Positions 1,881 through 20,437 of a stretch of 20,784 nt of DNA are shown piece after piece; position 1 is the stretch's first letter; every line of letters starts with the position of its first letter. Source of the stretch: Pigoraptor vietnamica (lineage: Eukaryota; Opisthokonta; Filasterea); NCBI GenBank assembly GCA_943704525.1, contig CALSCQ010002301.1:1-20784 (forward strand). Reading direction: 5' to 3'. Below the pieces are notes generated by a model. The model made no database searches. It worked only from the letters and a program-made list of their open reading frames with translations, and was not told the origin of the DNA. The position numbers and the translations under genes were made by a program.

Positions 1881-4800
1881 ATGTACGGTCGCATCTTTGC
1901 CGTCGCCGTGATCGCGGCGTCGGTGTGCGCTGCGTTTGCGCGCCCCACCGTCGACCTCAACGCCATTGCACCGGGTGTGTGGACGGAGGGGCGCACGCTC
2001 TTCCGCGACAAGAAGGTCTACGTGCACGAGAGCAAGGTACATGACACCAACAGACGTGCGAAATGTGCATGGTTTCGGACACGCAGGCTTGTGTGTGTCT
2101 GAACGGGCGCACATACAACCAGTGCTCAGAGGTCGAACCCTGCCCCTGTTAACAGATGCACACGGTCGTCGTTGACTCGGACGAGCGCCCTGCGCCGCTC
2201 CATCCCCTTGAGCTCATCCCCCGCCTCGAGCAAAGCAAGAAGGACCGCAGCGCCTACGTCAGCGGCGTCGGCGCTTCGCCCATTCCCGACAAGGTCCGTC
2301 TCTGCGCCACACACGTGCGCCCTTTTGTGCGAGGGACCGTAGTTCATTTGCCGTTGAAAGTGCTGTTAGTGGGCTGTCGGGCTTAGGCATGTCCTCGTGC
2401 GGGTAGAATGCAATCGGTGTTTTCTGCACGATACTCGACGGCTTTCATGCTACTCTCGGTCGCACACACACACACAGTCGGTTGATGAGTGCCGTCTGTG
2501 TTTTCAAGGCTGACAGTCACGGCTTAGATTAGCTAATAATCGGCAGTGCGTGATATCGCTTACCGATAGTCACCCTCGCGCCCCCCCAGTTCTTCCACTT
2601 TGTCCCCGAGTACGTCGGCGCCCTTCACGCCGACCAGTCGCTCTCGTGGAGCGCGCCCTGCTTCCGCAACAGCAGCGTCACGGTGCAGATGGCTGCCGAC
2701 GGCACGGCCTCGCTCGCCTTCAACGTGGGTTGCGTGCGAAGTTGCCGAGTGTATTGAGGAGTTGGTGTGCACGCGCGTGCACATGCACATACACGGTTAT
2801 GATTGACCATTCACACGCACTTGTGCGCACACGCACACTACGATTGTTATTGACTTGTAACGTATGTGCGCAGGTTGAGTCTGGCTCCTCGCTGCTCTGC
2901 GGCGACAACTACGTCATCATGACGGTCACAAGCTGGCACCTCGCGACCTTTGAGCTCCACGGCGAGCACAAGGTGACGTGGAAGCAGCTCTCCGCCCTCG
3001 AGCTGGACGACGTCACGCGCAACGGATTCCGCATCTTCCGGTGGGTGCCGTGGTGTGTGTGTGTGTGCTGGACCGCTCGTGTGGTTTACGTCGCACGGAC
3101 GCAGTGCTTGTGTGTGCGCTGGACCGCTCGTGTGGTTTACGTCGCACGGACGCAGTGCTTTGTGTGCGCTGGACCGCTCGTGTGGTTTACGTCGCACGGA
3201 CGCAGTGCTTGTGTGTGCGCTGGACCGCTCGTGTGGTTTACGTCGCGCGGACGCAGTGCTTTGTGTGCGCTGGACAGTCGCTGTGTGCATGCGATACGTT
3301 GGGCTTATCATGGGCACGGGATGTGTGCGGATTGTGTCATTGTGGACGTGAGACAGAGGGAAGGGGCGGGGGGATGGGGAGGAACTCGCACACTGTCGTT
3401 TTGCGTGTGCATGTATCGGGCGTCGTTCTTAGTTGCATTTGGTACCGCAACAGTTTCGACGATTCGATGACGACGACCGTCGCCGACGTGTATGAGACGG
3501 CGTCGCTCTTCCTCGGCGCGCTCGACGGCCTCCATGGCAGTCACGTGCCTGACGATGTCGCCGCGAAGAACATCAAGTTCCTCAAGGAGTATTCGGACTT
3601 TGACCTCCCGGTGAGTCGTGGGTCACGTGCAAGTGTGTACGTGTGCGTAGCTTGTGCAGATTCGTGCGCCCGCAGTATGCAAATGTGTGTGCACGTGTGT
3701 GTTGCCCATGTACTCTCTGCTCCCACACAATGTGTGTGGTGCTTTTCGCTCGTGAGCAGCCGTCCGCAAACCCTCCGTTTTCGCTCGCTCACTCCCATCG
3801 TCTCCGCAGAACCGCACCGTGATTGATCTCCCCATCAGCGAGAGCGACATCCACAGCGGCGATGTCTTTGGCATCCTGCGTCTGGACGGTCTCGATCCCC
3901 TGATCTGCTGGGGCACGGGCGGGCGTCTCGGCCACACGGCCGTCGCCCTCCGCATCGACGGCGAGCTGTACGTCCTCGAGAGCCAGACGAAGAGCAACTA
4001 CTGGCCCAAGGACCTCATCCAGCGTAACAAGTGGGTCAGGGCGCTTTGCGTGCACTGTGGATGTGTGAGCGGGCGTGTGCGCGCTTGCATGCACTGGGGA
4101 TGCGTGCAAGTTGAATCACGGCGTGTGCGCTTGCGTGTTCTGTGCGTGGATGCAAGCAGAGTGTCTCTGTTCTTCGTGCACGTGTTCTACCCACCTTTCG
4201 CGCAAGTCCCACTCATCCCCTTCATACTCGCAGGTTCTCTGACTGGATTGCCAACGCGATCAACGCGGACTACAACGTCGTCCTCCTGCCCCTCTCCCAG
4301 GAGAACCGCGCCAAGTTCAACGAGACGGCGGCGGCCGAGTGGTTCCTGCACGGCGTTGGCGGCGAGCCCATCGAGGGCCTCATGTACGGCTTCCGCGGGT
4401 TCATCTTTGGGTGGATCGACACGCTCCAGGGTGCGTGAGGAAAACGGCCGTTGAAGTGCGCGCATTCTTGCGCATGCGCGACTGCCCACACACGCACACC
4501 ACCGTAACTGTCCTCGCTGTCACACACTCACACACACGCCCTCAACTCTCACATTATTGTGACTGGCCGGAAATGTGTCCTTCCTGTCGCACACTCACAA
4601 ACACACACTCGGCATGGACGGGGTGCGAATTGTCTGAATAGACGAGCCTCTAACCGCCCGCACGCCGCGCAGCCAACTACCCCCCTCCCCTCGACGAGTC
4701 CTTTGTGATGACGGGCTTTGCGTTGATGGACCCTTTGATGGACGTTATAACGTCTAAGGCTCACGTGCCCAGCCTCTGGAACGAGGCCCTCAACAAGCGC

Positions 4801-5460
4801 ATCGGCACGGTCAACCTAACCACCGCAGAGGTCTACGAGGTGCGTGGGCGTGTGGGCGTGCGCCAACTTGCATGCGGAGGTGGTCGATATGTATGCCGGT
4901 GCCATCACGGTGCATGTGTGCGCGCGCGTTTGAATAGTACGGTGTCTGTGTGTGTTCTGTGTAAGTTGCATGGCATGCTGTTGCTTGTCACGATGTTCTG
5001 TCTCACCACTGACGACCCCGTCCTCGCGCTCTATCCCGTGCAGGAGGCCGCGAAGCGCAACTTGACTTTCGGCGACCTCATGACGCAGACGGAGAAGGAC
5101 TCGTTCATCTACTCTGGCAGCCCCTACTGGCGCGAGGGCCCCTCGATGGTCTGCAACGTGTTTGTGTGCAACATCTACCGCGCCGCCGGCCTCTTCGACG
5201 GCGTTGCGGATTTCGATTGCGCCGAGACGGTCCCTCTGGACCTCTACGAGATGCAGCTGTTCCAGGACGCCGCGACGGCGTACCCCGACTGCGCCGCCAA
5301 GGAGCCCGGCAGCCAGCTGTGCCAGATCCTCGGCAAGAACGTGCTCACGCTCCCCCACTTCAACACGGTCAAGCCTTTCAACGGCATGCGGACGCGCTGC
5401 CCGGGCACCCCGCCCGCGTACGCCGACCGCTTCAGCGCGGCCATTGACGACTCGTGCTAG
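1881..5460 (+). CDS. Secreted protein with a likely permuted papain-like (NlpC/P60-LRAT-like) domain, nine exons
   Basis: Exons: 1881-2036, 2156-2293, 2590-2724, 2874-3040, 3454-3610, 3810-4030, 4234-4430, 4673-4839, 5044-5460. They sum to 1755 nt (584 residues, stop TAG). All junctions are GT-AG and phases agree. Residues 1-20 form a signal peptide (hydrophobic core, likely cut after AAFA), so the protein enters the secretory pathway. A middle region (about 95-250) is rich in beta-type sequence and unassigned. Around residue 293 lies GGRLGHTAVALRIDG, with Glu308 in YVLESQ; near the end comes MVCNVFVCNIYRAAGLF with Cys483. A His-containing strand before a Cys-containing helix is the order seen in circularly permuted NlpC/P60, YiiX and LRAT-like hydrolases, so His293 and Cys483 are candidate catalytic residues. 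The family call is inference; substrate is unknown. A further Cys (488) and several N-glycosylation-like sites fit an extracellular role. Confidence 0.8.
3068..3275. repeat. 50/51-bp tandem repeat inside intron 4 of the secreted-protein gene
   Basis: The unit begins CTGGACCGCTCGTGTGGTTT. Copies start at 3068, 3119, 3169 and 3220, and a broken copy starts at 3270. The spacings are 51, 50, 51 and 50 because alternate units end in GCTTGTGTGTGCG or GCTTTGTGTGCG. This alternation implies the array grew by duplicating a 101-bp dimer. The array fills about half of intron 4 (3041-3453). Long open frames across it are by-products of the repeat. Confidence 0.92.
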
Positions 5461-5956: not shown

Positions 5957-5961
5957 CCAAT

Positions 5962-6083
5962 CGCGAACGACGCGTGCCCTCACTCGATCGCGAACGACGC
6001 GTGCCCTCACTCGATCGCGAACGACGCGTGCCCTCACTCGATCGCAAACGACGCGTGCCCTCACTCGATCGCGAACGACACGT
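5962..6083. repeat. 27-bp minisatellite overlapping the 3' end of the DJ-1/PfpI gene
   Basis: About four and a half copies of a 27-bp unit, containing ATCGCGAACGACGCGTGCCC, run head to tail. The unit is exactly nine codons long. The copy at 6061-6087 supplies the last residues and the stop codon of the adjacent minus-strand gene (…SFAIE, stop TGA). Each following copy carries the same TGA in the same frame. The array therefore looks like repeated duplication of the gene's own 3' end into its untranslated region. Confidence 0.9.
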
Positions 6084-6918
6084 CCCGCTCGTCGTCGTTC
6101 CAATCGTACTCCATGCGGCGCGCGGCTGCAACGGCCGATTCCCTCCCAACAAGACGACACACAAGATGCAGGGCCATGTCCGTACCCGCCGATATCCCCG
6201 CGGACGTGACGACCGAGCCGCAATCGACCCACCGATGCAGCGCCGACCACCGCACACCGGCGGGCGACACGGAGCGCACCCAATCGAACGCGCGCCTGTT
6301 GGTGGTCGCGCCGGAGAGGCCGTCGAGCACACCCGCGCGAGCGAGAAGAGATGCGCCCGTGCACACGGACGCAAGCACTTCGGGGTCGGTGCCGTTCCAG
6401 TGGGACGGTGCGGTGTCGGCAGCGGCATTCGCGGCGGAAGCGGTGTGCGCGTGGGGCGGAGGCAGCTTGCGCGCGAACGCCCGCACGAAATCCACAAGAG
6501 ATTCGTTCGCGTACTCGCGTCGAGTGCCCATGCCACCCGGCACAAGCAGCACGGACAGGGGCGGTGCGTCGTGGATGGTGTGCTGCGGCAGAACACAAGG
6601 ACCGCCGTTCATGGCGATGGGTGCGAGTGACTCGCCGATGAAAACGACACGAAACGCCTTGTCGGCCGCCGGGACGTTCGTAATCGGCGGCGATTCGCGC
6701 GGAGGTGCGTGTTCGGCGACGACGAATGCCTCGAGCGGACCGAAGACGTCCAAGGGTTCAAAGCCGTTGAAGAGAAGGAACCCGACCGTGCGCATGCGGC
6801 TCATTGCGCTCGCAGCCGCCATCCTCGACGTGACGAACACGAAAAGGGCAAACAGGAGCCAAGGGAACGAAGGCGATCGCAAGTAATGGCAGCGCACTTC
6901 AACACACTCTCTAAGCAC
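6061..6918 (-). CDS. DJ-1/PfpI-superfamily protein, isocyanide-hydratase-like
   Basis: A single open frame of 285 codons; no intron is needed. The core starts at residue 42 (MRTVGFLLFNGFEPLDVFG), where Asp57 matches the conserved acidic residue of the isocyanide hydratase/PfpI subgroup. Then come a strand ending in LLVPGGMGTRRE (124-135) and the nucleophile elbow ASVCTGASLLARAGVLDG with Cys186. Next is GATTNRRAFDW, equivalent to the TTHW region, then TSAGISAGTDMAL. Members are glutamine-amidotransferase-like folds acting as hydratases, chaperones or deglycases; the exact reaction cannot be read here. A 25-residue Ala/His/Pro-rich insert (about 151-180) precedes the elbow. Upstream of the core, residues 18-38 resemble a signal peptide (hydrophobic run then AAASA). 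If that is not used, translation could start at Met33 (6822) or Met42 (6795). The stop codon lies within the 27-bp repeat. Confidence 0.88.
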   Translation of the reverse strand: MLRECVEVRCHYLRSPSFPWLLFALFVFVTSRMAAASAMSRMRTVGFLLFNGFEPLDVFGPLEAFVVAEHAPPRESPPITNVPAADKAFRVVFIGESLAPIAMNGGPCVLPQHTIHDAPPLSVLLVPGGMGTRREYANESLVDFVRAFARKLPPPHAHTASAANAAADTAPSHWNGTDPEVLASVCTGASLLARAGVLDGLSGATTNRRAFDWVRSVSPAGVRWSALHRWVDCGSVVTSAGISAGTDMALHLVCRLVGRESAVAAARRMEYDWNDDERDVSFAIE

Positions 6919-7307
6919 ACACTCAGACTGTGCGGGAGACTCGTGGCGATGCCATGCTTTTTGTGTGCGCCGTGTTCGCCCTTGATGACATCACGGTCGT
7001 GTCGGAATTGTGTGGGTGTGCCCACCAATCGGACTCATGCCTGTTCCGCTCAGCTGCTGTTAATCTGCCGCACATCCACTCTTTCGTCTCTTTACGAAAG
7101 CCTCTTCAACAGGACGACCACGTGGCATGCAGCGGAAGGTTCGTCTGAGAGCCCCTTCTGTGCTTCGTATTATGTGTATGTAATTGGCGCGTTGACGAGT
7201 GTAACACTGCCACGCGGCACTCACAGTGTCACCGCAATACTATGTTTTACTACCGTCTCGCTTCAGCATTGCGAACTCACGCACGCAGTGACGGCGAAAG
7301 AGCAGCC
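6919..7307. other. Intergenic DNA between two minus-strand genes
   Basis: A 389-bp gap between the start of the DJ-1/PfpI gene and the stop of the RMDN-like gene. It should hold the promoter of the former and the 3' end of the latter. Short open frames in it have no recognisable motif. I see no repeat or RNA gene. Confidence 0.5.
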
Positions 7308-8553
7308 TCAGAGTTTCTTCATGACACCGCGCACGTGATCATCGAGCGCAATCTCGCTGGCGCTGATTCCCTTCGTGGCAAGGGCGCGCGTGTACCATTC
7401 CTTCGCTTCGGACGTCTTCTTGAGGGCGACGCACACGTCCCCGATCGCGACCATGTTGCGCTTGAAGGTCGGGTCCAACCGCGATGCCTGCACGCACGAG
7501 AAGAGAAAGGGGGGGTGTCAGCGTGAATAATCACAGGAAGCAGCGACACTTGTGTGCGACAGTGTGATTCACACAGGAGATATATCAGCGGCACGCGCGC
7601 GCAGTGCCCACACGCACCTCCATGAGATGCGCGAGGGCTTCCTCGTACGTCGCCTCGAGTGGCTTGCTGCTCATGCTCGCGGCGAGTTTTCGCTGCACCC
7701 AATTCATTCCGGCGACGCCGCAGCACCAGCGGCCGAGCATGTGGTGCGGCATCGGATCGCTGGGGTCGAGTTGGATCGAGCGCTCCACGTGCTCGCGGAC
7801 CTTGACGACGTTGTGGATCTTCTCCTTGGCGCCGAGATGCTCGTTCTGTGCAAGTTGTTTGCACGTTAGTGAGACGCGAGCAGGGAGAAACTCTCGTACT
7901 CTCACGTGTGAAATGTCGGAGTTACAACACACGCACATACAGCACACGAGAACATGCGCGCGCACGCTCCGGCACTGACCCTCCCCCCGTCGCGCACACA
8001 GACATTGGCCAGAGCAACTCACCATGCATTTCAAGGAGATGGCGTATATCTTGTGGGACGCCGCATTGTCGGGCGACGCCTTGAGCGCCTTCCCCGCAGT
8101 TTCGTTCGCCACCCGCGCATACGCCTCCTTCGCGTGCTTGTCTTGAGTCTCTGTTCAAACGAGAGAGAGACCCGTCAGTGGAAGGCTTTAAGGTTTACCC
8201 CTACGGACGCGTACGCCACTCGATATCATGAAGACGCCCACCTTCGCTCAGATTGCAGCACGCTCGTGCAAATCGCCACAGCAACTCTGGGTTCTCGCAG
8301 TCCTTGTCGAGAGCGACCTGCAAACACACGGCAAGGGTGAGTTACGGCGACACAACTTCAGACGCGCGATCGGCCACAAAGTACGGTACCTTGAGCACGT
8401 CGTGAGCGCGCTGGAACTCTCCTTTCTTGTGGAGGTCGTCTGCGAGCTGCAGCGTCTGTTGGGTCTCCTCTGCGCAAGGCATATTGTGCTCGGTGTTGCT
8501 TGTGTGCGATTGAGTGTGAAAGTTCCTTCTTCCCGCAGACTGTGCTCACGCAT
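7308..8553 (-). CDS. Regulator of microtubule dynamics (RMDN/FAM82) family TPR-like protein, six exons
   Basis: Exons in transcript order: 8550-8553, 8390-8469, 8242-8317, 8023-8150, 7618-7845, 7308-7487. The sum is 696 nt (231 residues, stop TGA), close to the length of the short nematode member RMD-1. Family landmarks appear in order: LADDLHKKGEF with a TPR-like helix pair, then ELLWRFARAC, then ASPDNAASHKIYAISL. These are followed by GAKEKIHNVVKVREHVERSI, then HHMLGRWCCGVAGMNWVQRK, then ATYEEALAHLMEASRLDP. The C terminus is KEWYTRALATKG. Members are helical repeat proteins linked to microtubules and, in animals, to mitochondria and ER contacts. This one shows no membrane segment, so it is probably cytosolic. 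All introns are GT-AG with matching phases. The first exon, ATG plus one base, is the weak point. It is in phase and follows a TATAAAAG sequence at 8565-8572, but the ATG at 8620-8622 is in the same frame and could extend the N terminus. Confidence 0.88.
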
Positions 8554-9291: not shown

Positions 9292-12200
9292 TCAGACGCT
9301 TTGATGCCCTGAACACGTCTGGCGGTGCTGCGGCCACGCGACCTTTTGGCACTCGCGGGAGCAGTAGCGCACCACGAGACACGCACCGCATTTGAGCAGC
9401 TTGACGTCGCCCTTCCCGCACGCTGCGCACGTGCGCGAAACGGTGGCCCCGTCGCGAGCTGGAGTGCCCTGGTTGTTGGACAGCGGGGACTCGGCTGACG
9501 GCGGACGAGAGAGAGTGGGGGTCCTAGACTGTGCACTGTTCTCGGGCGCTGACGTCCGCGTACCCGCACCAGCCTCCCTTACACCCGCTTGGCCAGTTTT
9601 CCGTGAAGCCGCTGTCGCAGCCGTGTTGCTCGTGCGCGCACGTTCTGCCGCCAGTGCTACCTCATGTTTGTGGGCGCCCATTGAGGGCGCTGGCGCAGGC
9701 GCGGCGGACGTGGACGGCGCACGCCGTTTCTCCTGCACGGGTGCTCCTTGACTCGCTTTCGCATCGCGCACACTGGTGGCGCCCGTTCCTGCAGCATCGT
9801 GGCCAGGACGTCAAAAAGGGTACCCGTACAATGGGCCACATGAACCACTCCCTCCTTCACACCACGCCACAAGAATTAGACAAGCGATGGGGCTGCAGAA
9901 ATCGTATGAAGGGACAATAGCCTGAATACAGATTTTTGAATGGATGGAGTGTGCACTGATCCCGGCGGTCCCAATCGCACGGACACGCAACTGAGACACG
10001 AGCATTCACCTTTTTCGCACGGATGCGGTCCCATAAATCCATCGAGGACGGCGAAGAACGGGTGCTGCTTGAATTGGCACGTGGGACAAACGACCTTCGG
10101 GCGCGCGGCAATTTCGGAGGGAGAGAGAAACGAGATACCCTGCACACAGGCGGCCCTCGGCTGTAAGCAAGCGAGCTGCTCCGTCGAACATGTACTGTAC
10201 GCACTCATCCTCATACACGCGCACACATGCGCCCACACACACACAAGGCGGCCTTGCGAGCCGAGTGGCGGTTGTAAGCGCACATATATATATATATATA
10301 TATAAGAATTTGGAGACACGCCAGGGGGAAATTGCAGCGGCGCGGCACTTACCAGCCGGTGCAGGTGCGTCTCAGGGTCCTTCCGCTGATGTGTCGACAT
10401 CAAGTCAGTTATGGCCACCCCCGTCGCCTTCCACTCGCGCACGGCGACGTATTCGCCCTGAAATTAGCGAAGCATCACGGACCATTCTCGATTCCACAGA
10501 CATCGACTGCGGTCGCACATGTACCAACCACCGAGTTCTTGAGCACGCGCATTGCTGTCCCGATCACTGCGAAGGTTTCGTTGTTCTCCCGCAGAGGCGT
10601 AACCGCAGCGACGACGGCCGCCATCGTAACGCGCTTTACCTCGATAGCACGAGCGAGGAACTCGGCGGCGTCGTTGCACACGTGCTCATCGGGTGGTGGG
10701 GTGCAGCAAAGCAGGAGCTTAATTCTGCGCATGCAACTCACGGTAAGTTTGATGAAGATGGAAGGCAAAGGTCGCGCGTTATATGACGGCAGCAATTGAA
10801 GTTGCGTAGTAGACAACACTGGTAGGGAACAGACGACACATAACGTCACGCTCATTGCGCGCGCTGGCAAAAAACGTTCGGGTACAACTGCTCTGCGTCA
10901 ATGCACAGTTCACGATGTCGTCAGGGACACGTGCGTGTCGCGGCAATTAATACTGACACACGCACCCGCCCACAACGTTCGCCGCAGTCAAGAGAGTGGT
11001 CCTCAACAAGGCATGTTCCGTACGCCCTGAGAGGAGCATCCGCTGCCACACGTCTGACGCGCCAGCGATGCAAAACACAACGAGTGCTTCGCGGGCCGAC
11101 GTGTCCCTGCCGTTAACCAGCTGCTCCAACGAAGCGATCGAGGCGGAATTCAGAAACGCCAGTACAGCCTTGAAGGCCGCGTCATACCAACTGTGTTCTT
11201 GCACTACAGGTATCCCCAGCGCGCAATCGCACGCGACGCCTGGCCTCGAACGCCTGAGTTCATAAACAACGCGCTGTCCGCCCATGATGAGCATGAAATG
11301 AGCCACCAGACCGCCACTATAGCGACGCCCACTCTCAGCGTCAGCAACGCCCCGCACCCACTCGAGCGCAAACCGCACGTCGTGCACCCAGTCACTGCCA
11401 GAGCCCCACGTCCCCAGCGCATCAACGAGCCCCCGTTCGCACACGGACAGGTCAATAGAGTGGCCGTCGTCGAGGATCATCCAGCTGAACACATGACCAA
11501 AGGACGAGGCCACACGCACTACCCATCGCGCAAGGTCGGCACGTCCACTGCGAAACGCACACGCAAGATGTCGCATCAACGTCGTCGCAAATGCCGAGTA
11601 GCTATAGTCCTTCAAGTACGCAGCATCAGCTATCAGGGGCGGTGAAAGTTGGCACGTCCGAGCGAGTACGCGTGGAAGAGTAAAGACCTCGGCATCGACA
11701 CCAGGAGAATCGCTGCCGCCAGGGACGCGCACAATTATCGTCATGAGCGTTACCGCCGTTTTCGGGGCAATGCGCGCGGAAAAGATCGCATCGAACGCGC
11801 GGGTGCGGCGCGGGTCGTCGAGGATGCACTGCACCAGCTGCGCGTACGCGAGCCCATCTTCGGCGTTCAATTGGGAATGGGCCAGGGTCGCGACAAGCGG
11901 GTCCAAGCAGCCGTCAGTCACACGGGTGAGATCCAGTGCGTCGATGCGCCCGCGTTTTGGCTGCTCGAGAACGGCATCCAAAGCGAGATTCCACAATCGC
12001 TCCCAGTCGCGACTTTTCACGGTGTCGGCGTCCACGTCACGTGAGAGGGCAGTCCTCAGCGCGCCCCACAGAATCGATTCGTCGTGGTCCGTCAGCCCCC
12101 CTCGCGCGCAACGTTCGCTTTTACCGTCGCCTCCACTCGTGGCGTCAACGTCGCTGCGCCCGCGGACCGCGGAGGGATCGCCGTCGTGAGCGTCGGGGCG

Positions 12201-12876
12201 ATATGCGTCTCTCACCGCCTGCTGCAAGACGACGTACAACTCCATGCAGTCCTTCACCGACTTGAGATCGCTGTTCTGCGAGAGCCGCCCGATAGAGTCG
12301 CCCAGAGAGCCGTAGAGAGCGAACCGAATTTCCTCCACTGCCGCAATTCCGCGAATGTACTCTAGGGCTTCGAAAGATAACGAGGACGTTTCCGCGAGGA
12401 CGCGCAATGCACACCGCGTGTGCATCGCTGGATACTCGGCGAATTTCGAGCGGTAGAGATGGAGGAGCGGAACACAAGCAAACATAACGTGGTCAATACT
12501 GTCAGGCGCGGCGCTCGGCGTTGGCGTCTCCCCTGTGCCCCCCACCGCCGCATAGAACGACGCCTCGAGGACGTTGTTTGCGCGCAGCATGTCGACCACG
12601 GGCTGAGGACACAGCTCACGGAAGCGGCAGAGGACGAAGACGGCGAGCATAGCCGTCGCCGTAGAGCCCCATTCCGAACGGTCGTCCTCAGAGGTCTGTA
12701 TAATGACGCGAGACAGTTCGTCCCACGCGCGCTCCCACGCTCTCGCGTCGACGACGAGCCCTTTGAGCTCTCCTCGAGAACCGCGACTGCCAACCTCAGC
12801 TGCCAAAAGGCCGACATGCATCACAGAACTACAGATGCGCAGCGCGACCTAGAGGTGGGGAAAGGGGGAGGGAGGG

Positions 12877-12933
<57 letters not shown>

Positions 12934-13246
12934 GGTGTTTAGATAGCACGGCATGCTCCATCGGTCGTCGCTCAACTCGACACCAGCATTCGACGCTGAC
13001 ACACAACGATTGAAAGTTTTTCAGACATAGATTACGCACCGCAACATCCCGAGAGGCCAGCGCGCGCCCCGTCTCTCCCCTGCTCAGAACAAATTCGCAC
13101 ACCACTGCGAGCGTGACGCGCAGCCCCTCGACCAACGCGGCCGTTCCTCGCGCGCCCTGTGCGTCCACGAGGGTAATGAAGGCGTCGTCCCTTGCGAACA
13201 TTCTCAGATAGTCTCGCACGGCGGGGCTGTACGCGAGCGACGCCAT
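9292..13246 (-). CDS. Large MYND-type zinc finger protein with an unassigned N-terminal region, six exons
   Basis: Exons in transcript order: 13040-13246, 10966-12848, 10532-10724, 10353-10457, 10010-10139, 9292-9788. They sum to 3015 nt (1004 residues, stop TGA) and all phases agree. Start MASLAYSPAV. Residues 1-760 are mostly alpha-helical in character and include repeated motifs such as CRFRELCPQ and QCILDDPRRT. I do not recognise a family; an ARM/HEAT-like solenoid is possible, especially around residues 700-760. A CPTCQFKQHPFF segment (exon 5) adds Cys residues that could bind metal. A low-complexity Ala/Pro/Ser linker then leads to a complete C-terminal MYND finger with ligands Cys960, 963, 973, 976, 982, 986, His994, Cys998 (C-x2-C, C-x2-C, C-x3-C, H-x3-C). 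MYND fingers mediate protein contacts, often with proline-rich peptides. The donor of exon 3 (GTGGTT at 10531) is the least certain junction. Two broken copies lie upstream. Confidence 0.82.
10283..10305. repeat. (TA)n microsatellite in an intron
   Basis: A run of about eleven TA units lies in the intron between exons 4 and 5 of the intact MYND gene (10140-10352). It is one of the few AT-only stretches in the window. Confidence 0.9.
12881..12937. repeat. (GT)22 tract plus GGGT repeats in MYND intron 1
   Basis: A perfect (GT)22 at 12881-12924 is followed by GGGT repeats to 12937. On the transcribed strand this reads as a long CA run followed by an unbroken C/T tract up to the acceptor (…CCCCACCTCTAG, exon starting at 12848). 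The tract lies 30-75 nt upstream of the acceptor and is polymorphism-prone. Confidence 0.92.
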
Positions 13247-13419
13247 TTCGCCCAGCCCACAGCAACTGTTGCGCAGGGGACAGCGCAGTGTGGGGAGGAG
13301 CACGCAACACGGGAGCACTTAGTTAGACGATAAAGTGTGTCGTGGAGCCGCCGGTGACGCCGTATTGACCGCCGGATCGGGCTAGCCTGTGTCCAGACGT
13401 TTAAAAAAAATTTTTTAGT
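13247..13419. other. Upstream region of the intact MYND gene
   Basis: About 170 bp separate the start codon of the intact gene from the relic to its right. They include an A/T palindrome at about 13401-13416 (a run of A followed by a run of T). The stretch should contain the promoter. No TATA box could be confirmed. Confidence 0.4.
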
Positions 13420-13981
13420 CGCCAGTTGAGATTCCCTCAAACCCGAGGAGGGCCAGCGCACGCACGGCGTGCAGTGCGTCGTCGTGGACGTCGGCGTTGG
13501 CCCTGTGCCCCCGGCAGCCGTATAGAGCGACGCCTCAAGTTTTTTGTTCTCGCGCATGTCGAACACGCGCTGCGGACACATCTCTCGGAAGCGACAGAGG
13601 TGACGGAAGACGAGGAGCAGCTGCGAGCCCGCGTTCCACCACACCGAACCGACGTCTTCGGCCGCGGTATGTACGGTGACAGGGGATTCGAGGACTTTCT
13701 CAGCTCGCAGGCCGAGTACGACTTCTCGATAAAGGAGCGCGAGGCGTGGTGAGTGGGATCGGGCGTGCACTTTGGGCTATCGGACGGTCTGAGCCGAAAG
13801 TTGTTCTTATTTCGCCAATTGGCTTTATTGTACTTCTGGTAGCATGCAATAGCATGCAATGCAAGTGACTCTCCGTCTTCTTCTTTCTTTGAGGATGCAT
13901 GAAGCAAGCCCAATCCACACGCGCTTCCTCGTTCTCAAGAAGGCGAATACGTCGGCGGTCAGTCCACGCCATGGTCGCCAT
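13420..13981 (-). pseudogene. Truncated 5' relic of a MYND-family gene
   Basis: On the minus strand it starts with MATMAW (ATG at 13981), matching MAAMAC of the decayed copy at 17688. The 5' flanks of the two copies also match (13990-14035 against 17695-17745, sharing GAGCGCACATGCGCC). A later part reads LCRFREMCPQRVFDM, then LEASLYTAAGGTG, clearly paralogous to exon 2 of the intact gene and closest to the decayed copy. After PTSTTTHCTPCV the sequence jumps to RALALLGFEGIS, skipping about 20 residues present in the decayed copy. The frame then stops near 13420. At least one further frame change lies in the exon-1 part. The rest of exon 2, exons 3-6 and the MYND finger are absent. The relic cannot make a family protein. 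Confidence 0.82.
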
Positions 13982-14078: not shown

Positions 14079-17000
14079 TTATAGCTTCACATTTTCCCGC
14101 GCTTTTTTCTTTTTTGCAGTGATCAGTTTATCGGCCGTCTTGGCCCACGTCTGGCGGTGCTGCGGCCACGCGGCCGTTTGGCACTCGCGGGAACAGTAGC
14201 GCACCACGCGACACCCTGCACACTTTGGCATCTTGGCCTCGCTCCTCCCACACGTCCCGCACGTGCACTGGCCGCGTTATTCCGGGGCGGCGACAGGTGG
14301 CGCGGCGTTGGGCACCGGCGGGCACCCGCTGTTCGGGGCGTTCTTTGCGTTCGCAGAAGAAGCCGTCGGCGCGCGTTGTGTGGGTGTGTCTCGCTGAACT
14401 GCGGTGCCTTGTATCGTAATGAGGCGACAGTCAGTACACTATTGTTCCCGGCAATCAATCCAAAGAAGACCCAGAAGTATGCAGACACGCTGTAAGTATG
14501 CGGCGCATGCACCTACGGACACGACAGCCTCGCATATGCGCCGAATCTCACACGACAGAACAGCGTAAAAACCCACCCTTTGCGCACGTGTAGAACACAA
14601 AGGATGCCAAATGGTGGCTGAACTGGCACGCGGCGCAGCCAAACTGCGAACGCGCGGCCAGTTGTCCCGGGGAGACAAACCGAATGCCCTGCGCGTGAGG
14701 AGCACTTGAGACAAAGCCGAACACTAGCGTTCACAGCAATGTGCTACCCCAGGACGAGAAACGATTCGTCATTTGAAAGAATGAAGTGATTGCGCCAAGC
14801 GAAGTGACGGGAATGCAGTTGAAACGTTGAAAGGCCCAGAAGAAGAGTGCAATGCATGCGAAGAACGGCCCTTACCAGCCGGCGCAGATGGGTCTCAGGG
14901 TCCTTCTGCTGTTCGCTCGACATGATGTCTGTGATGTTCCTCCCCGTCGCCTCCAAGCGATCACGGCAGCAAGTTCGCCCTGGCACGCGACGACATAAGC
15001 ACACGCTCGCGCAGCTCCGCAAGGAATACACATCGAGAGAGACCCACCATCTGCTTCTGAACTGTGCGAAGTGCCGCGGCGATCACCACGAGAGCGAGCG
15101 GCGCTCCTTGAGGTTGCGCCACCACACTGACGACATCCGACATCGACAGCAACTGATCCGAGACAGCATATCCCGCGAGTGCGCCCGCTGCGTTGCACAC
15201 CTCTTCGTCCGGATGCGAGCTGAAGCACAGCAACAATCTGAGCAAAAAACGCAAGCGAAAGACTGTGAGAAAAGCATGTCAAATCAATACAATGGAAGGC
15301 CTCTATTCAGCTCTGCCAAGCCAAATACAGGGAGACGGAGATAATGACGATCGTAAAAACGCACAGGCGCACGCACTACGCACCCGCCCACGACGTTGCC
15401 GGCAGTGAACACGGGAAGCCCGGCTACCAACAGTTCCCGAAAGCGATGGCGGTGCCGAACGTGTCGCACGGCGACGAAGCTCCACGCAACGAGCGCGTCG
15501 CGGTGAGCTGTCTCACACGCCAGCGAAACCAATGCGTCGACTGAGCCCGTAGCAAAGTATTCGCGGAAAGCTCATATAAGCGGCGTCGACCCAATCGACC
15601 TCCAGCGCCGCAGTACTGCCGACTTTCGAGGGATTCGAAACGGGGCTGCGCGCCTTCAGGATGCGCAAGAACTCTGCCCGTCTCGGGAGGTCCACTGAGC
15701 GCGTGACGTCATGTTCTCCAACCTCATCGTCACGGCAGATCCACTCGATTAAGAACTCCGCGTCAGTGTAGCCGTCGCCAAAACGCTTCGCAGACATCAC
15801 CTCCCGCAAGAGCCCCTGTTCGCACGCGGGCAGATCGACGCGCCTTTCATCGAGCACCGTCGCGCCATGCACTCTGCCAAAGGACGCCGCCACGCGCACA
15901 ATCCAGCGCGCAACGTAGACATGCTTGTTGCTAAAAGCACGTGCAAGACGCTCCATGAACACGGTCGCAATTTCCTGCCAGTCCTTTGCAACGTCCTGGC
16001 CAAAAAAGGGCGGCGCATGCTCGCACATGCGTGCCAGCACTCGCAGAAAAAGCTCGACGTCCGACCGTGCGTTCGTAGACATCAGGGCGCCCTCGCGAAT
16101 GCAGGCGCGGCGCAGAAACACCATAAGGAAAACGGTTACTCCCCGGCCAATGCCGGGGAAGAAGAGCGCGTCGAACTCGGGAGTGCGGCGTGGGTCGTCC
16201 AAAATGCAGTCGACCAGCTGCGCGTACGCCAGCTCGTCCTCACTTGTAGTAACGGCGGGCGGACAGATAAGCGCCCGAACAAGCGGATCCAGACGGCCGT
16301 CGCTCACGCCAGTGAGGTCTAGCGCATGGGTGCGACCCCACCTCTGCTGCTCGAGAACGGCGCACACAGCGATGGACCCCATACGCAGCCTTAGAACGCC
16401 CTGCACCATTTCCTCCATACGGTCGTAGTGGGAGGTGAGACCGGCCTTCAGCATGGTCCAGAGAACTTGCAGCGGCCTCGACCCCTTTCCAGCAGTCCGG
16501 CCACCGGCTCGGCAACCCACGAGTAATGGCAGGAGGTGCCGCCCGTTATGTTCGTTCGTCGCGGCTCGCCCGCCTAGGGACAGCCGAGGAAACGCCGTCG
16601 TGCTCGTCGCAGCAGATTGTCTCCCTCCGATCGAACGCAGCGTGCTGCAGCGCAATCGACAATTCCAGACACTCCTCAAGCAACGAATCGATCACCTCCC
16701 CGTCTGTGTCGAGGGCACGCGTGAGCTGCGCCATGCGATCGCGCAAGCCGCATGCAAGTTCTCTCGTACGCTGCGCACTTTGACGACTTCGCACAGGTAC
16801 TCCAAGGCATAGTCGATCGAGATGCCCCTAAACCCGAGAACCGCCAGCGCACAGCGCGCGTGCATCGCAGGAAACTCGGCGACGCTTCCGTAGAGGTGAA
16901 GAAACGCCATGCACACGCACGGCGTGCGTTGAGTTGTCGTGGACGTCGGCGTTTCCCCTGTGCCCCCAACGGCCGCATAGAGCGACGCCTCGAGCGCCTT

Positions 17001-17688
17001 GTTCGCCCGCAGTATGTCGAACACGCGCTGTGGACACAGCTCTCCGAAACGACACAGGGAAAAGACGGGGAGCATCTGCGAGGCTGCCACCCACCACTCC
17101 GCACCAACCTCCTCACGGGTCGCCACAGTGACGCGAGCAAACTTGGCCCACACGCGCTTCCACGCCTCTCCGTCGTCGACGATGCCGGCGAGCTCACCGC
17201 GCAAGCCGCGCTTATAGAGCTCCATCGCCAAATCAGACTGTACGCCCAAGAATTCGCTACACGTTGAGCCGCCTGAAGGGGGGATGCATGCCGTCAGCAC
17301 GCACTGTGATGCACCAGCGCAACGAGTACGTGCATTCCATATGGTCATGAACCCACATTCGAAGCAAAAAAAGCGCAACACGAACACAACACTCGATAGA
17401 ACTCCCCAGCACAGAGCGGAACACGAGTACATCCACCCAGAGAATACACGCAACCCGAATCCACCTGATGCAGTAACAAACCCACCCCAGCGTCCTTGCG
17501 CAAAGCCAGCACTGTCCGCTCTGGCTCTCCCTTGAGCAGAATCTGTTCGCACACAACTAGATTGACACGCGGAAGGCCTCCACAACACAATTCGCGTCAT
17601 AAAGAAGATGGATGCGCTCCACCACGTCATCATCTGTGAATAGGTCCAAGAAGTCGCAAACCTGGGCGCTGCAAGCCATGGCCGCCAT
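14079..17688 (-). pseudogene. Full-length decayed paralogue of the MYND-finger gene
   Basis: All six exons of the intact neighbour are recognisable: 17486-17688, about 15384-17272, 15048-15237, 14876-14979, 14577-14688, 14079-14398. Intron positions and phases match, so this is a DNA-level duplicate, not a retrocopy. It is broken in several places. A one-base loss lies in exon 1 near 17566, and another in exon 2 near 16775. A frame change lies near 15570, and possibly one near 16540. Exon 4 has 104 nt where the intact gene has 105. An in-frame TAA at 14277 lies just before the MYND finger. The finger itself keeps CGTCG, KCAGC and YCSREC, but its last zinc ligand is Trp (HRQTW in place of HRQTC). 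The intact gene has none of these faults, so assembly error is unlikely to explain them all. Translation could at best yield truncated pieces. Confidence 0.82.
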
Positions 17689-17997
17689 CCCCACGACGAG
17701 CGCACATGCGCCAACGTGGTTGCAGCAAGGGCATCGCGATCACGGAAACGTATTCGAAACACCAGGAGCTAACTGGACTAGTCATTAGCTCCTGGAAACA
17801 CTCATACGAGGTGGTCATCAATTTACGTGACGATTTCCCGCGCTATTTTCAGTTTGTCCGGACTGGTGCGGCTTGTCCGGACGGCGTGTTGTTTCAATTT
17901 GTCGGACCGTGTTTCTAAGAAACAGAACACAACGGACTCGCAAGCAGAACTCAGGCCCGTCCTGTTCCTCGGTACTGGCACTTTGCCTCTGTGAAGA
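17689..17997. promoter_or_regulatory. Divergent intergenic region with inverted and direct repeats
   Basis: This 309-bp gap separates the start of the decayed MYND copy (minus) from the CAP gene (plus). It contains a perfect 11-bp inverted repeat, CCAGGAGCTAA at 17762-17772 and TTAGCTCCTGG at 17785-17795, with a 12-base loop. It also has two direct copies of TTGTCCGGAC (17854 and 17873) and a near copy TTGTCGGACC just after. GTCCGGAC is itself palindromic. A promoter role is inferred from position only. Confidence 0.45.
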
Positions 17998-19618
17998 ATG
18001 GGAACTTCGCGCAGAGCTTCAATTGTCGTGGCTGTCGTATTATGCTTCGGTGGGCACAGCGAAGCACGCATACATGAGAACACACATATACACGCACATA
18101 CATGACGCGCACACACACACACACAGACACACACACATATACACGCACATCCATGCACGCTCACACACACACACACATACACGCACACGCATACAGACAC
18201 ACACACATATAAAGGCACATACATGCACGCACGCACACACACACACACAGCACACACACACACAGACACACACATATACACGCACACACACACACACACG
18301 CACAAGGCATACATACACGCACATGTGTAGGCGTACTCCTCTCGCACTTACACACACACATCCGTTCATGCACCACGCGCACGCATGACACGCATAACCT
18401 CTCCCCCTCGCGCGAACACTTAAGAGAAACTCGAACATGAGGACACAACTAACACGCGGCCACGTGCAGTCGGCGGTGCTCTTGCCCAGGGCGACCCTGC
18501 ATTTGAGAACCAGGTGTTTGTCCTCGTCAACCAAGTACGCGCGCAAAATGGACTCGCGGCGCTGTGCCTCAACAGCAAACTGCAGCGCGCCGCGGAATTG
18601 CATACGACGGACCAGGCCGTCCATTCAACAATGAGTGCGTCCTTCTGACGTGCGCGTGTGTTTGTGTTTGTGCATGACGCGTGAGGACATGTGCGAGTAG
18701 ATGCGTGGAAGGCACTGCGTGCATGCGTGATGGACGTGCGTGGACGTGTGTGGTGTGCGTGTGGGTGTGTACGTGCGTGCATATGTTTGCTACAACTACA
18801 GGTAATGGGAATTCACCCGCTTGTAACATTGCATTCACCAGGTCACACTGGATCGGATGGCAGCAATCCGGGCGCGCGTGTCACGCGGCAAAACTACGAC
18901 TGGAACAGCGTGAGTGCGTTGCCCTCATGTTGCCGTGCGTGTCGGAAGTGGGTCTGTGCGTGTGTGCATGCGTGTATACGTGCAAGTGTACGGAATGTGT
19001 GCAGCGTGAGCGTGTCTTTAATCGCGAAGGTCAGTTGGTCGCTAGTCCAAAAAAAAAGCGAGTAACTGCAAGTAACGAGAGTGTGGATCGCAGGTCGCCG
19101 AAAACGTCGCCGCGGGACAACGAACGCCCGCCGAAGTGATGAACTCGTGGATGAATTCTCCAGGTCCGTACACTCTTGGCCACTCTCGAGGCACATGCTT
19201 GCATGGCGCGCGCAGTTTGAGAAGCTACAGGAATTCGCGTCGGGGCGCATCGAGCGTGCGATGCGCAGTTCGAAAATTCACCGAAATCTCCCTCTTGACG
19301 CCGCAGGGCACCGCGCGAACATTCTCAGCGGCAACACGATGATTGGCGTGGGCTTTCAGAACTACTACTGGACGCAGGTAACGGCGACCACCATTCATTC
19401 CTCTGTGCACACTATTGGCTGCTGCATGCACGCAACCCCCCCTTCCCTTACCCAAGAGCCTCCTGCCGCTCTCGCCTGTTTCCTCACTGAGCCCAGCCAA
19501 CGCGCCACGCTACAACACGTGAGGACGAGGGTTCATTGAATACCCGCATGTGCAGGTCTTTGCGCGCTCGTCCACAGAAACGTGCGACATGCCCAACGGC
19601 ATCAATGGGGCATTGACG

Positions 19619-19649
<31 letters not shown>

Positions 19650-20437
19650 TTTATAGCGGCGCTGTTTATGGAGGAGGCGGAGGCGGTGGCAGCAACGGCG
19701 GTGCCATCGCGGGTGGCGTGATCTGCGCACTCGTCGTCGTTGGCGCGGTTGCGGGGCTTGCGTACTACAACCACACTCACAACGGCATCGTGGTACGTAC
19801 GTGCCAGTGCGCGTGCGTGTGAACCCCGAATACCGCAACGCACATTCGTGTGTAGGAGCACATGCCGTCCTGCAAAGTCTCTCCTGTGAATGATGTATTG
19901 CATTGCTCGCGGAACAACAGGTCTCCAACATCAAGAGGGGCTGGGCCAAGGTGTCGGGAGGCGGCGGAAGCGGCTCGAGGACAGTCACAACAACCAAGAA
20001 AACGTTCACATCGGAGAGCACCACGACGCTATCCGAGGTGAAGGTCGTCGCCAACCCTGTGCACGGCACCACTCCTCCACCATCGCGCTCCAAGCCGCAG
20101 TCGCCTGCGCCGGGTCGCGCTCAGTCGCCAGCACCGCCACGGCCGGCACCGGTAAATCTTTGGTCTGCGGTTTCTTTTCGCTGACGCCGTTTATTCTCTC
20201 GGGCAATTGCGTGTCGGTGTCGGTGTGTATGGGTTTGCAGCGGCTTGGGTGTGCGTCCGATGTGACCACTCTTGGCACACCCAGTTTTCCGTTGCTTACA
20301 CCAATCGGGTCCCAAAACACCCGCAGCCAACACACCATTCGCCGAATTCGCCCGCGCCGCCGCGCCCGTCGTCCCCGGCGACCAAGCCCGCAGCGTATGG
20401 GGGCAAGGCACCGCCGCGAGCCCCGTATAATCGCTAG
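17998..20437 (+). CDS. Membrane-anchored CAP/SCP-domain protein with proline-rich tail, eight exons
   Basis: Exons: 17998-18049, 18470-18634, 18842-18909, 19094-19163, 19307-19377, 19556-19792, 19921-20151, 20327-20437. They sum to 1005 nt (334 residues, stop TAG); every junction is GT-AG and in phase. The signal peptide is residues 1-23, with cleavage predicted after GGALA; splicing of exons 1 and 2 creates it. Residues about 29-148 form a CAP domain of the compact, bacterial/PR-1-like type. The landmarks are FVLVNQVRAQNGL, AELHTTDQ, SH74TGSDG, AE98NVAAG, PAE109VMNSWMNS, GH120RANIL, GVGF and YWTQVFA. The usual His-Glu-Glu-His tetrad is complete. A Gly-rich stalk (164-190, ten Gly in one run) follows, then a transmembrane helix (about 192-213). 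The cytoplasmic tail is about 120 residues, rich in Ser/Thr then in Pro, with several PxxP motifs. CAP proteins are usually secreted; this one should sit at a membrane with CAP outside. Confidence 0.9.
18069..18365. repeat. CA-rich satellite-like tract in CAP intron 1
   Basis: Intron 1 (18050-18469) is mostly (CA)n. A recurring motif ACATATACACGCACATACATG or close variant starts at 18084, 18135, 18205 and 18272, so blocks of about 50-70 bp have been duplicated within the CA background. Protein frames across it are His/Thr or Cys/Val repeats and not genes. Confidence 0.88.
19618..19648 (+). repeat. (GGC)n trinucleotide repeat encoding the Gly stalk
   Basis: A near-perfect GGC run in exon 6 of the CAP gene encodes ten consecutive Gly residues. 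A second Gly-rich block (GGAGGCGGAGGCGGTGGC) lies at about 19671-19690. The two form the flexible stalk between the CAP domain and the membrane helix. Length variation would change stalk length without shifting the frame. Confidence 0.9.

Follow-up and report, generated by a model that had tools for sequence, protein, structure and literature searches.

CAP proteins are widespread, and their mode of action is poorly understood. PMC10189770 describes plant CAP proteins that also contain transmembrane and kinase domains, the PR-1 receptor kinases of cacao, wheat and rice, and gives two conserved disulfide bonds for CAP domains. Animal GLIPR1 is presented in PMC3757444 as having a signal peptide, a CAP domain and a C-terminal membrane helix, and was shown at the cell surface. 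Among bacterial CAP proteins, BB0689 is named in PMC7554809 and PMC11784157, the latter of which describes its function as unknown.

We analyzed a 20,784-nt stretch of the Pigoraptor vietnamica genome (32.5 Mb in 1395 contigs), hereafter referred to as the window, which is contig C954 and carries intron-rich genes. At 17998-20437 on the forward strand, eight exons join into a 1005-nt coding sequence for a 334-residue protein that reads, in order, signal peptide, CAP domain, Gly stalk, one membrane helix and a 121-residue tail (Table 1). All seven introns, 128-420 bases long, are bounded by GT-AG, which together with the open coding sequence bears out the eight-exon model of the original prediction at the sequence level. 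Codon-usage scores for exons 1, 7 and 8 were negative or near zero and gave these exons no support. Three introns fall inside the Pfam CAP span and a fourth just before the VFARS residues, which excludes bacterial contamination as the source of the gene. VFARS, the stalk and the helix form a single uninterrupted open stretch in exon 6, so that skipping this exon would truncate the CAP domain too.

Table 1. Features of the CAP gene, in positions of the window.
Feature	Position	Strand	Content
Exon 1	17998..18049	+	start codon and most of signal peptide
Exon 2	18470..18634	+	end of signal peptide (ALA/Q, residue 23/24) and beginning of CAP domain
Exon 3	18842..18909	+	CAP domain with H74 (SHTGSDGS)
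Exon 4	19094..19163	+	CAP domain with E98 (AENVAAG) and W114
Exon 5	19307..19377	+	CAP domain with H120 (GHRANIL)
Exon 6	19556..19792	+	final CAP residues (VFARS), Gly stalk, transmembrane helix
Gly-rich stalk	19616..19702	+	residues about 163-191; contains (GGC)n 19619-19647
Transmembrane helix	19703..19768	+	residues 192-213
Exon 7	19921..20151	+	juxtamembrane tail and beginning of Pro-rich tail
VANPVH (NPxH motif)	20047..20064	+	tail
Exon 8	20327..20437	+	remaining Pro-rich tail and stop codon

Elsewhere in the window, the reverse strand carries a DJ-1/PfpI family gene (6064-6990, E 1.6e-13), a Regulator of microtubule dynamics (RMD1-3) domain (7588-8154, E 1.6e-17) and four frames (10947-12848, 13204-13776, 15513-16691 and 16692-17768) with common stretches such as LEASLYAAVGGTGETPT or ALDLTxVxDGxLDPLV. 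Judging by these stretches, the four frames are apparently tandem relatives of one gene; a Pfam scan of the first, third and fourth returned no match. On the forward strand, 1881-5460 holds a multi-exon gene with a hydrophobic N-terminus, of which the stretches 5044-5457 and 3756-4451 were scanned against Pfam without a match. Minisatellites lie at 460-606, 3058-3275 and 5960-6083, with units of 49, 51 and 27 bases that match at 96-100%, the 51-base one being seemingly intronic.

The predicted CAP domain was confirmed by Pfam, in which PF00188 matched residues 36-141 (E 3.6e-17, 63.7 bits, cut-off 21.1). For its tetrad, we aligned the window protein with nine relatives from bacterial genomes and one from a viral contig, chosen from 83 that we had fetched. 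H74, E98 and H120 were invariant in all 11 sequences, as was the Trp. The position three residues beyond this Trp, which we take to be the place of the second tetrad Glu in PR-1 and GAPR-1 type CAP domains, was Ser in 11/11, and the E109 column varied among E, Q, D, A and S. Thus, by sequence, three residues of what had been called a complete tetrad are clear, but the second Glu has no conserved counterpart. Of the four Cys in the protein, C16 falls within the signal peptide and C199 within the helix, which leaves C50 and C152. Because only C50 and C152 lie outside the signal peptide and the helix, one disulfide at most can form rather than both, and the domain lacks the two-disulfide feature of the eukaryotic PR-1, CRISP and GAPR-1 CAP domains. 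An exon-by-exon scan of the genome, which a split gene could escape, found no second CAP gene (next match E 0.997).

Comparisons outside the genome pointed to bacteria. A phmmer search of PDB sequences with E up to 0.1 returned three chains (4ifa, 4d53 and 4h0a), none of them named as a eukaryotic CAP protein. The domain was not closer to the eukaryotic PR-1, CRISP and GAPR-1 CAP structures than to bacterial ones; in a profile search against the PDB, 4ifa scored 1.1e-28 and GAPR-1 followed far behind at 5e-6. Against the YkwD model TIGR02909 (NCBIfam), the domain scored 82.7 bits (E 2e-23), under the cut-off of 171. By these sequence comparisons, we class the CAP domain as bacterial and YkwD-like, though below TIGR02909 membership.

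A scan of bacterial genomes confirmed 522 relatives, the best 80 of which were retained; the top identities among these, over the best segment, were 57% with the actinobacterium Streptomyces roseus and 56% with a Calothrix MAG. A plasmid search gave 90 records, and viral contigs gave three loci. When we considered the best 80 of the 522 bacterial loci together with the three viral-contig loci, the reading frame stopped within 23 residues of the nominal domain end in 81/83. Among the 83, just two cyanobacterial loci (L104 and L129) had long C-terminal extensions; these consist of TP repeats and measure 289 and 295 residues. In a midpoint-rooted CAP tree of 84 rows, of which the window domain was the sole eukaryotic one, that domain grouped on long branches with four cyanobacterial rows (95/79 support, not starred). 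The tree hints at a transfer of the CAP domain, without showing one.

The anatomy around the domain agreed with the prediction of a single-pass, receptor-like CAP protein. By hydropathy, the N-terminus is a putative signal peptide, MGTSRRASIVVAVVLCFVGGALA followed by Q, that ends at ALA/Q. One further hydrophobic segment was found, at residues 192-213 (19-residue hydropathy peak 2.5), corresponding to the single predicted transmembrane helix. The Gly stalk precedes it, and the tail, which had been put at about 120 residues, measures 121. Four K/R occur in the first 30 tail residues against zero in the 45 that lead up to the helix, which fits a type I topology. The gene is best read as encoding a predicted type I single-pass surface protein of receptor or adhesion type.

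Further backing for the receptor-like reading came from stalk and helix likeness to SH3-tailed and kinase-tailed proteins in the same genome. A genome search with a query made up of the stalk, the helix, the tail and a portion of the CAP domain matched contigs C869 and C798 (E 3.5e-6 and 1.2e-5). Both carry a TSP1_ADAMTS domain upstream (E 1.2e-5 and 1.7e-6), then a stalk and helix similar to those of the window protein, and past the helix an SH3 domain (E 2.1e-14 and 7e-12) that, from order and strand, would belong to the same transcript. With a hand-written 36-residue consensus of stalk and helix as the probe, the genome yielded 22 places (E up to 10), one of which is the window's own. Two of them, in C77 and C345, run into tyrosine-kinase-type domains according to Pfam (E 7.9e-30 and 8.9e-11), and those in C333, C1386, C805 and C1308 resemble these two by eye, the C333 fragment having no Pfam match. 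All six are single-pass proteins whose tails open with a common juxtamembrane stretch, and C1386 and C1308 are near copies; together the six look like a receptor-kinase family. At the level of sequence, then, the stalk-helix layout is one that recurs among the single-pass proteins of this genome. The DNA did not support C869 or C798 as a recent donor of the helix exon, with 49/84 and 33/84 bases alike, respectively. Given this dissimilarity of the DNA, the helix likeness to these two loci may be convergent.

The original prediction had proposed SH3-, WW- or MYND-type partners for the tail, which it described as proline-rich with PxxP motifs. The Pro-rich segment does hold nine PxxP, but this is not above chance (shuffle mean 6.9; 19% of 5000 shuffles equal or higher). 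Class I and II SH3 ligands together number two (RSKPQSP and KAPPRAP), where shuffles average 1.9 and 60% of 5000 are as high. SH3-type motifs are thus at chance level given the composition of the tail. PPxY is a WW ligand and PxLxP a MYND ligand; the tail contains neither. We therefore rejected a WW link through PPxY, and likewise the MYND link, as MYND fingers have 58 matches genome-wide, six of them across about 22 kb of contig C686. The window itself has MYND fingers at 9313-9429 and 14151-14261 on the reverse strand, which carry little meaning in a genome where the finger is so common. With 86 SH3_1 matches in the genome (E up to 0.01), the tail could have SH3 partners, but none of its features points to them specifically, and the proposed partners as a group gained little from these results. 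A whole-protein Pfam scan placed no domain in the tail, and no kinase domain matched anywhere in the protein at E up to 1.

NPxY is a receptor-tail sorting signal that is well known in animals. The CAP tail contains VANPVH, with His where NPxY has Tyr. We first noticed the motif here and in the tail of C127 (AENPLH); the tails of C869, C798 and C333 lack NPxH. Judged by eye, the SH3 domain close to the C127 helix is part of another gene, one that is SH3-RhoGEF-PH-like. On the reverse complement of C127, 5704-8025 is a long frame that by eye reads as SH3-RhoGEF-PH (PIX-like), the SH3 being the part that was scored.

Fifteen further tails were located with the probe, which lacks the NPxH motif; C1372 and C1381 were dropped from the 22 places since in them a stop or the end of the contig removes the tail. 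Tails were translated in one frame, unspliced, with the kinase tails and the C551 tail trimmed by hand. NPxH appeared in two of the 15 (VMNPAH in C599 and MENPMH in C551), or in 4/20 tails overall, and C495 carries LSNPAF. In what we regard as the fairer test, with the pattern NP.H, 73 of 200,000 composition-preserving shuffles reached at least 2 of the 15 tails. A post hoc pattern, fitted after the cases had been seen, gave 0/200,000 both for these 15 and for the initial set of six (2/6), which overstates the case. NP[VL]H or NP[VL]HG, the narrow form in which the motif was originally noticed, was found in 0/15 of the later tails.

Genome-wide, ENP[ILMV]H occurred 21 times versus 9 for a reversed control pattern, and of the 19 other places, that in C753 alone looks tail-like. 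A large genome-wide NPxH code is therefore unsupported. A 24-residue motif probe of the genome found nothing. PTB/PID profiles gave two matches over the cut-off, in C1195 (E 2.9e-12) and in C1130 (E 6.9e-4, with an internal stop), and a PTB/PID protein is a possible reader of NPx-type motifs.

Taking these results together, we tentatively favor a type I surface protein with an outside-binding CAP domain and a tail that docks or sorts through NPVH and possibly SH3 proteins, a reading to which we give somewhat less than an even chance. The CAP domain would bind a ligand outside the cell, such as a lipid, a wall fragment or a partner protein. The tail would act in docking or sorting and not as an enzyme, with NPVH used in the manner of NPxY; possible partners are encoded among the SH3_1 matches and the two PTB/PID matches, one of which has the internal stop. 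As to origin, the gene probably arose when a bacterial-type CAP domain was joined to a stalk and helix of the layout found in other receptors of the organism. The main rival, which we consider doubtful but worth serious weight, is a GLIPR1-like membrane tether whose tail is inert low-complexity filler, so that the protein would act outside the cell only. Such filler would account for SH3-type motifs at the level expected from composition and for a tail devoid of Pfam domains, and GLIPR1 provides a precedent (PMC3757444); the recurrence of NPxH in tails beneath other ectodomains of the same genome argues for a working tail instead.

Two further alternatives concern the product rather than the function of the tail. 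The main product could be a soluble secreted CAP protein, released by stalk proteolysis or made by alternative splicing, with the membrane form a precursor or minor species. That 81/83 of the fetched bacterial or viral-contig relatives stop right after the CAP domain is in keeping with this, and a long Gly stalk should be accessible to proteases, but splicing would need a site internal to exon 6, where the CAP end, stalk and helix share one open stretch; we judge this version quite unlikely. Least probable to us is that exons 7 and 8 are mis-modeled, either because exon 7 reads on to a stop just inside intron 7 (frame 19894-20184) or because other splice sites are used, giving a shorter Pro-rich end. 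The unsupportive codon scores of these exons would be explained, but both have consensus splice sites and an open frame, and NPVH, which is present in other tails too, backs the frame of exon 7. Returning to the docking or sorting protein that we favor, one could extend it into a scheme in which a bacterial CAP domain, perhaps cyanobacterial, was wired into a protist receptor layout with a shared His-type NPxY signal, one adaptor serving several unrelated ectodomains. We regard this extension as unlikely.

Among the matches listed in our literature searches, we found no CAP-TM-Pro protein of a protist by title or abstract opening, no CAP receptor by title for CAP domains and choanoflagellates, and no title of a paper about an NPxH-type motif. 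The link between a CAP domain and an inner tail offers a handle, in that tail partners would reveal the cellular effect of CAP binding. If the domain was transferred and later acquired introns along with a membrane anchor, a bacterial envelope domain would have been turned into a eukaryotic surface receptor. Should NPxH prove functional, it would represent, in a protist, a histidine variant of the animal receptor-sorting signal.

Set beside known systems, the window protein shares parts with several. Within its own genome, the TSP1/SH3 proteins of C869 and C798 have the same Gly stalk and a GAIAGxVI helix, and C869 also has a Pro-rich tail, but they carry TSP1_ADAMTS outside and SH3 inside, if order and strand are a guide to one transcript. 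Bacterial YkwD-like CAP proteins (Streptomyces, Calothrix and Richelia) are up to 57% identical and keep the same invariant residues; they end within 23 residues of the domain in 81/83 loci, whereas the window protein continues into stalk, helix and tail. GLIPR1, as described, has the same architecture of signal peptide, CAP domain and then membrane helix, a likeness of architecture only; it is a 266-residue protein with a C-terminal helix, to which the Pigoraptor protein adds the Gly stalk and the 121-residue tail. The plant PR-1 receptor kinases, as described, likewise combine a CAP domain, a transmembrane segment and an inside part, but join a PR-1 type CAP domain to a kinase, in contrast to a bacterial-type CAP domain and a tail with neither kinase nor other Pfam domain. 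With GLIPR1 and the plant receptor kinases on record in these sources, membrane CAP proteins are already known and the idea itself is not new. The bacterial-type CAP domain, the stalk and the NPVH-bearing, Pro-rich tail set the window protein apart, and its CAP domain and tail look like a separate invention.
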